DNA of 35,745 nt from Bacteroidetes bacterium GWA2_40_15 (GTDB lineage Bacteria; Bacteroidota; Bacteroidia; Bacteroidales; VadinHA17), in contig MENI01000092.1 in assembly GCA_001768195.1 (NCBI GenBank), forward strand, positions 1 to 35,745. Reading direction: 5' to 3'. The notes beneath the pieces are model-generated. The model did not search any database. It had not been told where the DNA came from and saw only the letters and a list, made by a program, of their open reading frames with translations. Below are positions 8,730-13,204 of the stretch, piece after piece. The stretch's first letter is position 1; the number at the start of each line of letters is the position of its first letter. The translations under genes and the position numbers were made by a program.

Positions 8730-9914
8730 TTAAAGTATTCCAAGTGCCTTAGCAGCTTTTGTGATCTTCTCAACAGATATCTCTACCTGTTCCTTAGTAT
8801 GGGTTGCCATCAGGGAATATCTGATGAGGCAGTCCTCCTTTGGAACGGCAGGTGAAACAACAGGATTAACAAAAATTCCATCGGCAAGGAGCATCTGGGT
8901 AAGCTGAAGAGCTTTTATATCATCACGGATAAAGAGCGGAATGATCGGGGTTTCTGAAGTACCGGTATCAAAGCCGGCTTCTTTGAAACCCTTAAGAGCG
9001 ATGGCTGTCATATCCCAGAGATGTTGAATCCTCTCAGGCTCATGTTCCATTATATCGATCGAAGCAAGCACTGCAGCAGTGGATGCAGGTGTCATACTGG
9101 CGCTGAAAATAAGCGTTCTGGAATTATGCTTGATGAAATTAATTACCTCCTTGTCACCCGCAATAAAACCACCAAGAGAAGCAAATGATTTTGAGAAGGT
9201 TCCCATGATAAGGTCGACCTTTTCGGTAAGTCCGAAATGCGATGCAGTACCGGAACCGTTTTTTCCTATAACCCCAAGTGAATGGGCATCATCAACCATT
9301 ATTGATGCATTATACTTTTCAGCCAGCCTTACAACCTCCGGCAGGTTTATAATATCCCCCTCCATTGAGAATATGCCATCAACGACTATTAGTTTGAGCC
9401 TTTCACCATCACATATCTTAAGTTTTGCTTCCAGGGCATCCATGTCGTTGTGAGCGAACTTCAGCACTTTTGAAAAAGAGAGCCTGCTGCCTTCAATTAT
9501 TGATGCATGATCAAGTTCGTCAAGCACAAGATAGTCATGCCGGCCTGCAAGAAGGGAAACGACTCCAAGATTTACCTGGAATCCGGTACTGTAGCAAAGA
9601 GCGCCATCCATACCGACGAGTTCTGCAAGCTTTCTCTCAAGTTTAATATGGATATCGAGGGTCCCGTTCAGAAACCTCGATCCGGCACAGCCTGTTCCAT
9701 ACTTGTCGATAGCGGCTTTTGCAGCTTCCTTTACTTTTGGATGGTTGGTAAGTCCAAGGTAGCTGTTCGATCCGAACATCAGAACCTTTTTACCGTTTAT
9801 CAGAACTTCGGTGTCCTGGTCAGACTCTATTTCCCTGAAGTAGGGATAGATACCGGCCTGCATTGCTTTCTGCGGGGCATCATAGCCTGATAGTCTCTCT
9901 TTTAAAAATCTCAC
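8730..9914 (-). CDS. spt: serine palmitoyltransferase (PLP-dependent alpha-oxoamine synthase)
   Basis: A 394-residue cytosolic fold-type I PLP enzyme that condenses serine with a fatty acyl-CoA (or acyl-ACP) to 3-ketosphinganine, the first step of sphingolipid synthesis in Bacteroidota. Visible motifs are FGSNSYLGL, GCAGSRFLNGT, the PLP-stacking His in DELDHASI, MVDDAHSLG with the PLP Asp and His, and the Schiff-base Lys in GTFSKSFASLGGF. The N-terminus (APQKAMQAGIYPYFREIES) and the C-terminal SLMATHTKEQV resemble the Bacteroides enzyme more than 8-amino-7-oxononanoate synthase or glycine C-acetyltransferase, which share the fold and are the main alternatives. The start is a GTG (9912-9914); no ATG gives a better N-terminus. 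It is the first gene of a likely two-gene operon. Confidence 0.88.
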   Translation of the reverse strand: MRFLKERLSGYDAPQKAMQAGIYPYFREIESDQDTEVLINGKKVLMFGSNSYLGLTNHPKVKEAAKAAIDKYGTGCAGSRFLNGTLDIHIKLERKLAELVGMDGALCYSTGFQVNLGVVSLLAGRHDYLVLDELDHASIIEGSRLSFSKVLKFAHNDMDALEAKLKICDGERLKLIVVDGIFSMEGDIINLPEVVRLAEKYNASIMVDDAHSLGVIGKNGSGTASHFGLTEKVDLIMGTFSKSFASLGGFIAGDKEVINFIKHNSRTLIFSASMTPASTAAVLASIDIMEHEPERIQHLWDMTAIALKGFKEAGFDTGTSETPIIPLFIRDDIKALQLTQMLLADGIFVNPVVSPAVPKEDCLIRYSLMATHTKEQVEISVEKITKAAKALGIL

Positions 9915-10460
9915 TGGTAAGATTAATTTTTAAATTTAACGATCAAAAATAGTTAAAATCAGATATAAATGACGAATTAGTTATATTTTCGAACATATTT
10001 ATGTTCTAAGCTTTAAGAAATAAAGTGTTTTATTAGATTGTAACAGTTATATTTACAGTGTGTTATATGCAAAATGCAAAGAAGCTTAACCAATGGAGGA
10101 AATTTACAGGTTCTTTTTATTTCTGATTTTCAGCTTTGCAGTGCTTATATTTATTTTATTATTCTTTATAAGTAGTGTCCTATTAAAATAATGAGATTCT
10201 TCGCTGCGCTCAGAATGACAAGTGTTTAGGGAGTTAGGGAGTTAAAAACATAAGCATCTGTCATTCTGAGCGAAACGAAGTGAAGCGAAGAATCTCCTTC
10301 TAATTTTATATATTATCCGTTTAGCAGTGATTCTTTATATTAACTCCTTATGGGAAATTACTGAGGAAAGGGTAGATCCCTATAAAATTTAATCCAATTT
10401 CTTTTGGTGGATTTAAATATGCGATTTACTTTTGTGTCCGAAATCAAATCAGAGGATCTA
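9915..10460. other. intergenic region with promoter-type inverted repeat and repeat element
   Basis: This gap separates the leftward serine palmitoyltransferase gene from the rightward metal module. It contains a GAACAT-ATTT-ATGTTC inverted repeat at 9991-10006, which could be an operator about 80 bases upstream of the palmitoyltransferase start, and a longer repeat element at 10193-10296 (listed separately). No gene was recognised. Promoters for both flanking operons should lie here, but I could not place them with confidence. Confidence 0.5.
10193..10296. repeat. imperfect inverted-repeat element (MITE-like)
   Basis: The left arm (10193-10220) starts GAGATTCTTCGCT and ends with CTCAGAATGACA. 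The right arm (10259-10296) starts with TGTCATTCTGAG and ends with AGCGAAGAATCTC, the inverted counterpart, with about ten extra bases in a GAAACGAAGTGAAGCGAAG stretch. The 38-base centre contains GGGAGTTA twice. Such paired arms look like a small non-autonomous repeat; no target duplication was found. Confidence 0.7.
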
Positions 10461-10505
10461 ATGGACGACGACCCGGCGGAGAGATTATTTGTTAACCTGG
10501 TATAA
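10461..10505 (+). CDS. upstream ORF, candidate Mg2+-sensing leader peptide MDDDPAERLFVNLV
   Basis: A 14-codon ORF with ATG at 10461 and TAA at 10503-10505, preceded by the Shine-Dalgarno-like AGAGGA at 10451-10456 with a 4-base spacer. The peptide starts Met-Asp-Asp-Asp-Pro. Acidic and acidic-proline N-termini are known to make nascent-chain-bearing ribosomes fall apart when Mg2+ is low (intrinsic ribosome destabilisation), the mechanism described for the MgtL leader of enterobacterial mgtA. Here the ORF ends 58 bases before a gene with an MgtE-type Mg-sensing domain and upstream of an Nramp-type carrier, so a Mg-responsive leader is plausible. The sequence shows only the ORF, its ribosome site and position; the sensing role is inference. 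A structured, untranslated RNA element or chance are the alternatives. Confidence 0.5.
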   Translation: MDDDPAERLFVNLV

Positions 10506-10512
10506 AGGGATA

Positions 10513-10558
10513 ACCGGTCGTTCCGGTCACTTCCTGCATTATCAGAATTAAAAGGAGG
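10513..10558 (+). promoter_or_regulatory. leader RNA structure with sequestrable Shine-Dalgarno
   Basis: ACCGG (10513-10517) and CCGGT (10523-10527) form a 5-bp hairpin with a 5-base loop. CTTCCT (10530-10535) can pair fully, with one G-U, with AGGAGG (10553-10558), the strong ribosome binding site of the next gene, which has a 5-base spacer to its ATG at 10564. CCGGTCGT (10514-10521) can alternatively pair with ACGACCCGG inside the upstream ORF (10468-10476) with one bulged C. Two mutually exclusive folds are thus possible, one blocked by a ribosome on the upstream ORF. Function is inferred; the pairings were found by eye. Confidence 0.45.
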
Positions 10559-10563
10559 TGGCT

Positions 10564-11838
10564 ATGACATCACTCACAACATTTTACCTAAGCGGCATAA
10601 TTGGCAAAGAGGCATTTGATGCCGATGGTGAAGCTATCGGATTTATCAGGGATTTACTTGTAAGCTCCATGCCCACGGAGAATAATGATCCGGGGCATCA
10701 GCTGGTTACAGGTGTGAAGCTCAGGATTAATAAAGAGATTCACTGTTATTCCTTTAACAGCTTCAGAGTAGTCAAGGCACGTGAAATGCTTAATGTATCA
10801 TGCAGTGAACTCATTGAGATGGGAAGGGAAGAGGTGGAGAACGGGCTTCTTCTTGTTGAAAATATTCTTGACAAACAGATCGTTGACCTTAATGGCAGAA
10901 AGCTTGTCAGAGTTAATGATATCAGGCTTGTAACCCTTCCTACCGGTACATTTACCATTGCTGTTGACATTGGGATAGAGGGTTTGCTGCGCAGGATAGG
11001 CATTGCACAGCCAATAAAAAGAATACTGTCGCTGTTTAAAATAAATATACCCGCAAAATTCATTCTCTGGGATGATGTTCAGGCTATTGATTACTCAAAT
11101 CTTAATATCAGGCTATCAAAAAGTTACGCCAAACTGCATACTCTTCACCCGTCTGATATAGCTGATATTCTGGAAGACCTTGGAAAAAAATCGAGTATGT
11201 CGGTTTTCTCTGCTCTCGATGAAGAGAAAGCGGCTGATGTACTTGAGGAACTTGAAACCCATGCACAGGTACATATTGTTGAAAACCTGCCGGTAGACAA
11301 AGCAGCAGATGTTCTTGAAAAAATGCCGGCTGATGAAGTGGCTGATATTCTCGATGAGCTTGAGGATGATAAGGCAGAACTGCTTCTGAAAGAAATGGAT
11401 ATGGAATCCTCTCAGGAGGTCCGTGAATTGCTTGAATATGACGACGACATGGTTGGAAGTATCATGACGACCGATTATCTCTCATTCAGTGCCGATAAAA
11501 CTGTCGAAGATGTTCTTCAGGTACTCCGGCATAAGAAACCTGAAGCTGCGGAACTTTATAACCTTTTTGTCACAGAGAAAAACGATGAGCTTATCGGAAC
11601 CTTTAATCTCCGCGACCTGGTTCTTGCTGAACCAACTCTAAGCATAAATGAGATTATGAAGTCCGAACCTGTATATCTGTTCGATGATCAGAAAGCAAGG
11701 GCGATTGCTGAAATTGTTTCAAAGTACAATCTGCTGGCCGTACCTGTTGTTGACAGGAACAACCTTCTCCAGGGTATGGTTGTGGTTGATGATGTTGTAG
11801 AGGATCTGATTAATGAAAGGAGAACCAGGAAAAGATAA
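10564..11838 (+). CDS. soluble PRC-barrel/MgtE-N/CBS-domain protein, putative Mg2+-responsive partner of the Nramp carrier
   Basis: A 424-residue protein without a convincing membrane segment. Residues about 1-165 look like two PRC-barrel-like beta segments (GKEAFDADGEAIGFIRDLLV; DKQIVDLNGRKLVRVNDIRL). Residues about 190-290 form a superhelical MgtE N domain with repeated ADILEDL/ADVLEEL units (HPSDIADILEDL, AADVLEKMPADEVADILDEL). Residues about 295-420 are a CBS pair (VGSIMTTDYLSFSADKTVEDV; NLLAVPVVD, LLQGMVVVDDVVEDL). In the Mg2+ channel MgtE, the N and CBS domains sense cytosolic Mg2+; here the channel domain is absent. A carrier gene follows after about 110 bases, so it may gate or regulate that carrier. 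An in-frame GTG at 10558 overlaps the Shine-Dalgarno AGGAGG, so the ATG at 10564 is the start. Confidence 0.87.
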   Translation: MTSLTTFYLSGIIGKEAFDADGEAIGFIRDLLVSSMPTENNDPGHQLVTGVKLRINKEIHCYSFNSFRVVKAREMLNVSCSELIEMGREEVENGLLLVENILDKQIVDLNGRKLVRVNDIRLVTLPTGTFTIAVDIGIEGLLRRIGIAQPIKRILSLFKINIPAKFILWDDVQAIDYSNLNIRLSKSYAKLHTLHPSDIADILEDLGKKSSMSVFSALDEEKAADVLEELETHAQVHIVENLPVDKAADVLEKMPADEVADILDELEDDKAELLLKEMDMESSQEVRELLEYDDDMVGSIMTTDYLSFSADKTVEDVLQVLRHKKPEAAELYNLFVTEKNDELIGTFNLRDLVLAEPTLSINEIMKSEPVYLFDDQKARAIAEIVSKYNLLAVPVVDRNNLLQGMVVVDDVVEDLINERRTRKR

Positions 11839-11858
11839 AAGGCACGAGATGCAAGAAA

Positions 11859-11890
11859 CAAGACAAAAGACAAAAGACAAAAGACAAAAA
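11859..11890. repeat. short tandem repeat of AGACAAA type
   Basis: About four copies of a 7-base AAGACAA unit (period shift near the ends) lie in the spacer between the MgtE-N/CBS gene and the carrier gene. The 110-base spacer also contains TTGCCAATACCTGGCA. No coding or terminator role is evident. Confidence 0.75.
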
Positions 11891-11950
11891 GTTGTAAGTT
11901 GAAAGTGAAAGATAATTGCCAATACCTGGCACCCGGCAACTAATTATGTG

Positions 11951-13204
11951 ATGATCAGGTACAGATTAAGAAACATGCATTTTTTCAAAAGAGCGGCAAT
12001 TTTCTTTGCAATTCTGGGCCCTGGCATTATTACCGGAAGTGTTGATAATGATGCAGGGGGAATAACCACTTATTCAGTTGCCGGTGCGTTGTACGGCTAT
12101 GGATTGATCTGGACCCTTATTCCCTCCTTCATCGTGCTTCTGGTTGTTCAGGAGATGAATGCCCGAATGGGTATCGTCACCGGGAAAGGATTGTCTGATC
12201 TGATCCGTGAAAATGCAGGAATGAAGATAACCTTTCTTATCTTCCTCGGACTACTTCTGTCAAACATAGGCAATACTACCACAGAATTTGCAGGTGTTGC
12301 CGGCAGTCTGGAAATATTCGGTGTAAGCAAGTATTTTTCTGTACCGGTAGTGGCAGTTTTGGTCTGGTTTCTGGTAGTCAAAGGCACCTACAAAATTGCT
12401 GAGCGTATTTTTCTGGTTTTCAGTGCATCGTTGCTCACCTATGTGGTGTCGGCACTTATGAGCAAACCCGACTGGGGATCAATTGGCTCATCTATTATCA
12501 GGCCTGATGTCGAAATGAACACTCAGAGCCTTGCAATGGTTATTGCTCTGGTTGGTACAACTATTGCACCCTGGATGCAGTTTTATATGCAATCGACTGT
12601 AATAGAGAAGGGGTTGAAAATGAAGAATTTCAGATATACCATGATCGATATAGCCGTGGGTTGCGTTATAACCGTTGTTGTGGCGTTTTTCATAATGGTG
12701 GCTTGTGGTTCGACTCTTTATCCCAATGGGATTCAGATCAACGAGGCCAAAGATGCCGCCATGTCTCTTGAACCGCTTGCCGGAAGGCTGGCTTCACACG
12801 TTTTTGCATTTGGATTGTTCATAGCATCTGTGTTCTCTGCCACGATATTACCCCTTGCCACAGCCTACTATGTCTCAGAAGCATTTGGTTTTGAAGCAGG
12901 TATTGATAAAAAATGGGACGAGGCAAAGGAGTTTTATTCTCTTTATACCGGAATACTTATAATATCGGCACTTATCATATTAATCCCTGGCGCTCCGCTT
13001 ATTAAAATTTCCATCTGGTCGCAGGTACTGAATGGGATTCTGCTTCCTGTCGTTCTTATCAGCATGATCCTGCTTATTAACAATAAAAAGATTATGGGAG
13101 CCTATGTTAATAATCTGACGCAGAATATTATTGGATGGGTAGCTGTTGTATTACTTGTCGGATTGTCTCTTGCACTGCTTGTGATACCATTCTTTAGCGG
13201 ATGA
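11951..13204 (+). CDS. Nramp (SLC11)-family divalent metal transporter with variant metal site
   Basis: About 417 residues with ten to eleven hydrophobic segments of an Nramp carrier in the inner membrane. In TM1 the canonical DPGN metal-binding motif is replaced by DNDAGG (about residues 32-37, in GPGIITGSVDNDAGGITTYS). In TM6 the canonical Met before the Pro is Ala (TTIAPWM, Ala about 206). Loss of that Met is a feature of the Nramp-related magnesium transporters, so Mg2+ rather than Mn2+/Fe2+ is a plausible substrate; this is inference. The upstream partner has MgtE-type Mg-sensing domains, which fits. A GTG at 11948, the ATG at 11951 and an ATG at 11975 (before HFFKRAAIFF) are all possible starts; none has a good Shine-Dalgarno. 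The pyrophosphatase gene follows by 43 bases. Confidence 0.87.
   Translation: MIRYRLRNMHFFKRAAIFFAILGPGIITGSVDNDAGGITTYSVAGALYGYGLIWTLIPSFIVLLVVQEMNARMGIVTGKGLSDLIRENAGMKITFLIFLGLLLSNIGNTTTEFAGVAGSLEIFGVSKYFSVPVVAVLVWFLVVKGTYKIAERIFLVFSASLLTYVVSALMSKPDWGSIGSSIIRPDVEMNTQSLAMVIALVGTTIAPWMQFYMQSTVIEKGLKMKNFRYTMIDIAVGCVITVVVAFFIMVACGSTLYPNGIQINEAKDAAMSLEPLAGRLASHVFAFGLFIASVFSATILPLATAYYVSEAFGFEAGIDKKWDEAKEFYSLYTGILIISALIILIPGAPLIKISIWSQVLNGILLPVVLISMILLINNKKIMGAYVNNLTQNIIGWVAVVLLVGLSLALLVIPFFSG

Follow-up and report, generated by a model that had tools for sequence, protein, structure and literature searches.

A short, acidic open reading frame (ORF) placed just ahead of a predicted transporter operon raises the question of whether its translation could report the supply of Mg2+ to the genes behind it. 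Such a frame lies in the stretch of DNA analyzed here (the window; 35,745 nucleotides, contig MENI01000092.1 of Bacteroidetes bacterium GWA2_40_15), for which the original prediction proposed a leader peptide that controls an Nramp-type operon on the principle of MgtL. According to the accessible parts of two reports, acidic residues early in a nascent chain cause ribosome pausing or drop-off that is suppressed by Mg2+, and MgtL carries the residues EPDP (PMC11282234, PMC9718836).

The leader frame and the operon behind it

The ORF MDDDPAERLFVNLV has 14 codons and runs on the plus strand from the ATG at 10461 to the TAA at 10505, with its stop 58 nt upstream of the main ATG at 10564, exactly where it had been proposed. 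The ATGGAYGANNNNCCNGCG motif has a single occurrence in the whole 4.77 Mb genome. The leader had also been credited with its own Shine-Dalgarno (SD) sequence, AGAGGA, and this part did not stand up to comparison: the element is not conserved, and an SD-like 4-mer is present in 9 of the 77 upstream regions of relatives described below. What is conserved upstream is the Bacteroidota −7 box TRNNTTTG: 57 of 77 relatives have it at a distance of 22-28 nt ahead of the leader ATG, compared with 7 of 156 control windows. It agrees with the promoter consensus TAnnTTTG / TTTG quoted in the accessible text of PMC7366714. The transcript is predicted to start near 10440, a position inferred from the promoter, which would give a 5′ UTR of about 20 nt. 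The coordinates of all features are collected in Table 1.

Table 1. Features of the leader, the downstream RNA and the operon in the window.
Feature	Position	Strand	Basis and details
Bacteroidota-type promoter (predicted)	10403..10434	+	TTTG 10403-10406; −7 box TACTTTTG 10427-10434
Leader ORF MDDDPAERLFVNLV*	10461..10505	+	Sequence and relatives; conserved part, codons 1-6 (10461-10478)
Possible helix C	10463..10523	+	Folding; codons 1-3 (10463-10469) with 10517-10523, codons 4-6 (10471-10476) with arm 1 (10496-10501)
Putative helix B (ON)	10497..10545	+	Folding, swap test; arm 1 (10497-10502, 10506-10510) with arm 2 (10540-10545, 10531-10535)
Putative helix A (OFF)	10525..10563	+	Folding, swap test; anti-SD 10525-10535 GGTCACTTCCT with main-gene SD region 10553-10563
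Shine-Dalgarno AGGAGG of the first gene	10553..10558	+	Sequence; alignment of relatives
MgtE_N and two CBS stretches	10564..11838	+	Pfam; N-terminal PRC-barrel match below the Pfam cut-off
Nramp-related Mg2+ transporter (NRMT)	11951..13204	+	Pfam PF01566; DNDAGG and GTTIAPW motifs

Upstream of the promoter, at 10190-10299, there are imperfect inverted repeats (arms 10199-10228/10251-10280 and 10190-10210/10279-10299) whose arms are 83-86% complementary and which are perhaps a small repeat element. The best weak Rfam matches in the window (E 0.015 and above) fall on this repeat, away from the leader, and were set aside. A gene for a serine palmitoyltransferase of the CFB type (8730-9914, minus strand) is divergent from the operon.

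The MgtE-N/CBS and Nramp genes that the leader had been said to precede were both confirmed by Pfam. The best PDB match of the window Nramp is EleNRMT (7qia, E 1.4e-110), and the next is an MntH at 4.3e-25, a gap of 85 orders of magnitude. Its GTTIAPW motif aligns with GTTIAPW of EleNRMT, and a binding-site change of the NRMTs, in which a Met is replaced, is named in the accessible text of PMC8806188. These sequence matches support placing the window Nramp with the Mg2+ transporter EleNRMT rather than with MntH, and the operon would thus be, by homology, a Mg2+ uptake operon. What counts against this reading is an Acidobacterium relative of the Nramp, which is reported to carry mainly Mn2+ (PMC4072509, as far as its text was accessible). 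In the organism's own genome no MgtE transporter domain scored above the Pfam cut-off (best, 21.8 bits), and on this domain search alone a main route of Mg2+ import into the cell may be the NRMT.

An Nramp match lies downstream of the MgtE_N/CBS gene in 72 of 80 contig loci, and four others are cut short. Four loci (L093, L101, L103, and L112) carry MgtE_N/CBS without an adjacent Nramp within about 2.4-2.5 kb downstream and stand as counter-evidence to the pairing. The leader is normally spaced in L093, L101, and L112, and that of L103 is 34 nt from the gene; L112 has a CorA-like ORF about 1.2 kb downstream, with a GMN motif recognized by eye. The intergenic gap of the window (11839-11950, about 110 nt) contains two 7-nt tandem repeats, AAGACAA at 11860-11889 and AAAGTTG at 11888-11911, whereas the next ORF follows the first gene after 12-21 nt in 10 of 12 loci.

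Conservation of the leader at the codon level

Homologues of the MgtE_N/CBS gene were gathered from 61 genomes (49 with a match, from which L028 alone was added to the set) and from 80 named contigs. The resulting set of 77 upstream regions consists of the 80 contig loci minus L072, L079, L081, L083, and L085, in which the contig or the match starts only at or within the gene, together with the window and L028; L027 was left out as a duplicate of the contig of L068. A leader of the type M-D-[DEGP]-x-P-A is present in 69 of the 77 regions, with the ORF starting 97-124 nt before the gene, and only four of these leaders depart from the type, each at one position (MGEDPA, MDEDPS, MDEGPI, and MDDLPD). 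Codon 2 encodes Asp in 68/69 leaders and codon 3 Asp or Glu in 62/69, in a set whose regular expression itself demands ATGG[AG][CT] and CC at codon 5. A peptide-free search, whose sole requirements were a −7 box and, 18-32 nt further on, the ATG of an ORF of 6-30 codons, was passed by 50 of the 77 regions, and among those 50 leaders Pro5 is found in 49, Asp2 in 48, and Ala6 in 46. The ends of the leaders vary, anywhere from codon 9 to codon 25.

No leader was called in eight regions (L062, L103, L088, L092, L100, L102, L106, and L111). In L062 the leader frame is intact and begins with ATA GAT rather than ATG GAC, which could be a lost start, an unusual initiation codon or an assembly error. 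L103 does have a leader, at the short distance given above. In L111 the leader and arm 1 have apparently been deleted, so that the promoter lies directly before the anti-SD and the SD, a natural variant.

Changes were counted by Fitch parsimony on a 77-tip tree that included eight new leaders from the order-wide scan described below. Codons 2, 3, and 5 together show 34 third-position changes vs. 6 at positions 1-2. Codon 5 has 14 changes, all silent, its positions 1-2 having been fixed by the selection pattern, and codon 3, which the pattern did not fix, has 17 third-position vs. 5 other changes. The third positions of codons 3 and 5 vary about as much as the sites after codon 6. Codon 4 is free, and codon 6 has two changes at each position; from codon 7 onward there are 9-25 changes per site and nothing is conserved. 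Across codons 7-9 of the 77 sequences there are no in-frame stops, compared with 1, 9, and 33 in frame +1 and 10, 3, and 2 in frame +2. By these comparisons the coding signature is restricted to six codons, and the start of the leader ORF, its frame, its acidic residues, and Pro5 are conserved to a degree that excludes chance. This is the outcome that the original prediction had called for when it suggested checking homologous upstream regions at the codon level: the ORF is conserved in 69/77, with silent changes. Nor are the relatives devoid of the ORF or out of frame, and the conservation is not that of RNA alone.

Two codons are constrained further. At position 6, all 66 Ala codons of a set selected without a GCG requirement are GCG, while GCG makes up 6% of Ala codons in 14 ORFs of the window and 10% in the homologous genes. 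Of the 68 Asp codons at position 2, 65 are GAC, compared with 28-34% elsewhere. The frozen GAC2 and GCG6 are an RNA- or tRNA-level constraint beyond what a peptide model alone explains. Slow decoding at GCG after Pro5 might, as a guess, explain the frozen Ala6 codon in the NRMT form; the only tRNA-Ala seen among 30 of 35 tRNA places has the anticodon GGC. A helix between the leader codons and the 5′ end was considered as a reason for the frozen GCG; its pairing proved weak (z −2.2) and the idea was not adopted.

The RNA between leader and operon

Two mutually exclusive helices are predicted between leader and gene: helix A pairs the anti-SD with the SD of the first gene, whereas in helix B the anti-SD is bound by arm 1, in or near the leader stop. 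In the window this stop codon (10503-10505) sits between the two parts of arm 1. A swap test compared native helix partners with partners exchanged between loci in 78 regions, with 300 swaps. Native partners pair better than swapped ones both in helix A (arm 2 with the SD; z −10.3) and in helix B (arm 1 with arm 2; z −6.3), suggesting that both helices covary, although these permutation tests, like the rank tests, treat relatives as independent and are optimistic. Compensated pairs are visible in single loci, such as GGCCAC/GTGGC (L050), ATTGC/GCAAT (L070), and TGCATCTTCC/GGAGGATGCA (L089). Pairing of the leader with the loop (helix C) gave z −2.9 and pairing with the whole spacer z −0.2, with a leader sequence that itself hardly varies. 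No conserved block was seen in the alignment outside the leader except for the helix arms and the SD.

Sequestration of the SD was scored as pairing with upstream bases while a ribosome footprint was moved along the leader in 70 regions. This score took the place of the unpaired probability of the SD, a poor measure of accessibility because of additional weak pairing between the SD and the opening codons of the gene. Mean sequestration was 0.73 for ribosome-free RNA; a P site at codons 2-7 lowered it to 0.50-0.56 and one at codons 11-17 raised it to 0.91-0.93, and it dropped again from codon 19 onward. The leader stop lies at codons 10-18 in 63/70 regions, near or inside this OFF zone. Codons 11-15 exceeded the early positions by more than 0.05 in 50/70 regions and fell below them in none; the 20/70 regions with no such gain are evidence against a general switch. 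A ribosome at the last sense codon left the SD more sequestered than an early ribosome did in 48/70 regions, and an early ribosome gave lower sequestration than no ribosome in 39/70; the opposite was seen in 4/70 regions in each comparison and counts against the model. The late-minus-early difference was +0.38 for native vs. −0.12 for shuffled spacers (82 regions, six shuffles each).

The window's own RNA is less favorable. Equilibrium folding prefers helix A in every state (0.98, 0.96, and 1.00), and the overall fold is no better than that of shuffled sequences (z −0.25), both of which speak against a switch at equilibrium. A switch in the window would thus have to be kinetic and depend on helix B being in place before transcription reaches the SD. 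A search of the plus strand for intrinsic terminators found none. No Rfam model, the M-box included, reached its gathering score in the window or in any of 20 related loci, and nothing at E<=0.05 came up in nine leaderless loci.

Taken together, the leader and the helices probably constitute a ribosome-sensing translational attenuator for Mg2+ uptake. At low Mg2+, ribosomes carrying nascent MDDDP(A) would pause and/or split at codons 2-6, and the stalled and newly initiating ribosomes would cover the leader start and never reach arm 1. Arm 1 could then capture the anti-SD, which would leave the SD free, and MgtE_N/CBS and NRMT would be made. Early drop-off and early pausing would both fit, because repeated initiation would keep the leader start covered and arm 1 free. 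At ample Mg2+, ribosomes would proceed to the stop codon, which lies in or next to arm 1, and would block helix B; helix A would form and the SD would be hidden. If the leader is not translated, helix C together with helix A may hold the operon off.

Other Mg2+ transporters, known systems and rival readings

Leaders of this kind were also sought without reference to the gene behind them, using two patterns in 393 genomes of the order. The first pattern (ATGGA.. with CCNGCG) matched 18 places in 17 genomes, and 12 of these have the leader arrangement. All 12 precede a MgtE_N/CBS homologue (50-100% identity), 11 of them with an Nramp start in the flank; one is the window itself, L158, L159, and L162 are identical to L097, L099, and L098, and eight are new. 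The other six matches (L161, L163, L165, L167, L170, and L174) lie inside frames of 365-763 codons and were rejected. The second pattern had GAN at codons 2-3, GNN at codon 4 and then Pro-Tyr, so that the DG-P-Y consensus is partly imposed; it fixes codons 4 and 6 and not the downstream gene, and the placement before CorA and MgtE is therefore not imposed. It matched 19 places in 17 genomes, or 17 distinct loci (L313 and L314 being second matches at L297 and L310), and the 13 loci with the leader arrangement all precede an Mg2+ transporter gene, namely 8 CorA and 5 MgtE by Pfam. L297, L301, L302, and L305 were rejected as lying inside frames of 262-1008 codons. The accepted matches sit in no frame longer than 82 codons, except that the CorA leader L303 is also within an open frame of 253 codons, which weighs against it.

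Scanning of 395 genomes of the class gave 13 places. One is the window and one precedes a CorA gene, with the leader MDDYPA (L117); the 11 others were dismissed because they lie inside frames of 176-615 codons. Among 295 genomes of the class of G201, G201 alone matched, and in a CorA survey around G201 (29 of 30 loci, the fragment L152 left out) the single leader was that of L128, the same gene as L117. Surveys through the MgtE gene covered 24, 30, and 30 loci, the latter largely from the same genomes; in the first of them L177, L184, L185, and L198 are not valid negatives, another ORF having been taken there. Leaders were found in G475, G537, G334, G457, G776, and G808 only, those of G475, G334, G457, and G808 being added by the gene-based surveys. 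The close MgtE homologues in G478, G499, and G471 have no leader, and most of the more distant MgtE and CorA examined are also without one, which counts against a general association. In three other Bacteroidia genomes, an out-of-frame ATG lies 7 nt before the start taken for CorA (L129 1470, L130 1470, and L131 1482) and opens with MDDDYQ.., MDDDND.., and MEDDPD.., respectively, possibly an acidic overlapping ORF and a different layout of the same idea.

The leaders before other Bacteroidales CorA and MgtE genes are of the M[DE][DE][DG]PY type, plus the one MDDYPA before CorA. Codon 6 is Tyr or Gly in the MgtE leaders L236, L240, L241, and L270, which were found via the gene and not by the pattern. 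In the CorA/MgtE set of 18 regions the swap test gave z −4.5 for helix A and −5.2 for helix B, and 0 of 1000 swaps were as good. The ribosome scan had the same shape but was weaker (0.82 with no ribosome, 0.68-0.73 at codons 4-8, and 0.89-0.91 at codons 11-15), and as counter-evidence the early and last codons differ by 0.05 or less in 10/18 regions. Mean identity between CorA and MgtE leader regions is 0.59 (63 pairs) compared with 0.56 and 0.60 within the families, part of codons 1-6 having been fixed by the pattern. NRMT, CorA, and MgtE are unrelated families with Mg2+ as their common substrate. One peptide type before three such families thus ties the leader to Mg2+.

The closest functional parallel is MgtQ, an 8-codon ORF in the Salmonella mgtC-mgtB intergenic region. 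As described in the accessible text of PMC8092293, Asp2 and Glu5 of MgtQ keep the ribosome near the start, whereupon helix 2:3 forms and frees the mgtB SD, while no translation or efficient translation leaves 3:4 closed. Both systems have a short ORF with early acidic residues (in MgtQ together with Pro4), alternative RNA structures (3:4 vs. 2:3), the SD of an Mg2+ transporter hidden in 3:4, and a translational output, which is the most likely one here; to helix 1:2, which accompanies 3:4 in MgtQ, helix C would be the possible counterpart. However, MgtQ is located between two operon genes and acts on enterobacterial mgtB, and its Pro4 mattered through base pairing (PMC8092293, same parts), whereas the Bacteroidota leader is 5′-proximal, upstream of the first gene of the operon, has a Pro5 that is conserved as an amino acid, and would serve NRMT, CorA, and MgtE. 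It appears to reproduce the logic of MgtQ by analogy and not to be an orthologue of it. MgtL, the 5′ leader peptide of mgtA in E. coli and Salmonella, likewise has acidic residues and prolines near its start (EPDP; Pro at 3, 5, 7, and 9) and senses Mg2+ via ribosome stability or elongation, but it acts on Rho-dependent transcription termination in the accessible parts of PMC11282234, PMC6460261, and PMC11552253, while here the SD is the apparent target and the plus strand has no intrinsic terminator. CorL, the enterobacterial corA leader, is also a uORF before corA, with translation inverse to corA expression and dependent on Mg2+; it is said to have fewer acidic and Pro residues and to act through Rho (PMC11552253, in part), whereas the Bacteroidales corA leaders combine the acidic-Pro peptides given above with an anti-SD switch. 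Finally, operons of MgtE-N-like and NRMT genes under an Mg2+-responsive RNA leader are known: the M-box precedes mgtE-like/nrmT operons, mostly in Clostridia and Deltaproteobacteria, according to the accessible text of PMC4072509. The Bacteroidota operon has no M-box match and has a translated leader instead.

The proposed MgtL-like control of the Nramp operon is thus supported in its principle, by the conserved acidic/Pro5 start, its recurrence before three Mg2+ transporter families and the closeness of the Nramp to EleNRMT. Besides the leader SD, which is not conserved, two points need correction: the output is most likely translational, through an anti-SD switch, and not transcriptional as in mgtL, and codons 2 and 6 are constrained below the amino-acid level.

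Several other readings of the leader have to be weighed. An attenuator of the ordinary kind that responds to some other translation signal (charged tRNA-Pro or tRNA-Ala, EF-P, ABC-F supply, or general elongation stress) would use the same ribosome readout without Mg2+ as its direct input. Pro5 in 49 of the 50 peptide-free leaders and the rare Ala codon at position 6 would suit such a device, and EF-P and charged tRNA-Pro are reported to act on the mgtL and mgtP leaders (PMC6460261, accessible parts). However, there is a single Pro codon where classical attenuators have a run of one amino acid, the acidic residues at codons 2 and 3 are kept as well (68/69 and 62/69), codon 6 is Tyr or Gly in the four MgtE leaders named above, and the targets found are Mg2+ transporters; we regard this reading as unlikely. 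A riboswitch that binds Mg2+, with GGACGA..CCKGCG acting as an RNA motif and the ORF arising as a by-product, is improbable to a somewhat greater degree. It would account for the nearly frozen GAC and GCG at the nucleotide level, and Mg2+ riboswitches do precede mgtE-like/nrmT operons elsewhere (PMC4072509, in part), but the third positions of codons 3 and 5 vary like the sites after codon 6 while positions 1-2 hardly do, and the CorA/MgtE cassettes retain the peptide type and not GCG. Rfam gave no gathering-score match in the window or the 20 related loci, and the leader, the helix arms, and the SD are the sole conserved blocks.

A role of the peptide as a small protein in its own right, for example as a regulator of the transporter, seems very improbable: its end ranges from codon 9 to codon 25 and the residues past codon 6 are unconstrained, although enterobacteria do possess small regulators of Mg2+ transport, such as MgtS and MgtR. 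The least credible reading is a chance ORF within a structured 5′ UTR. The window alone lacks statistical support for folding, but the comparative evidence from conservation, swaps, codon signature, and scans refutes chance as far as sequence can.

The reading as an Mg2+ attenuator may also be stated more broadly, with somewhat lower confidence than for the locus itself. It is fairly likely that Bacteroidota have a widespread, portable Mg2+-sensing cassette, made of a 5′-terminal acidic-Pro5 leader and an anti-SD switch and placed on the NRMT operon, CorA, and MgtE, in which sensing would couple nascent-chain ribosome destabilization to slow decoding (Pro5, then the rare GCG in the NRMT form). 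It would be the counterpart of enterobacterial MgtL and MgtQ in this phylum, having arisen independently or through very old descent. Among the literature matches listed, with subscription journals mostly outside the coverage, we found no description of leader-peptide Mg2+ sensing in Bacteroidota and none that joins intrinsic ribosome destabilization with mgtE. The phylum, the peptide, the transporters, and the shared cassette thus appear to be undescribed in the literature searched, and the logic of MgtQ and MgtL is already known. If this reading is true, acidic nascent-chain destabilization of the ribosome would serve as an Mg2+ sensor far beyond the enterobacteria, its readable sequence signature would predict Mg2+ transporters, and dozens of natural variants would be at hand for testing which residues and codons matter. 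One regulatory cassette would then be common to unrelated transporter families; the leader regions of CorA and MgtE, with part of codons 1-6 set by the pattern, resemble each other between the two families as much as within each.
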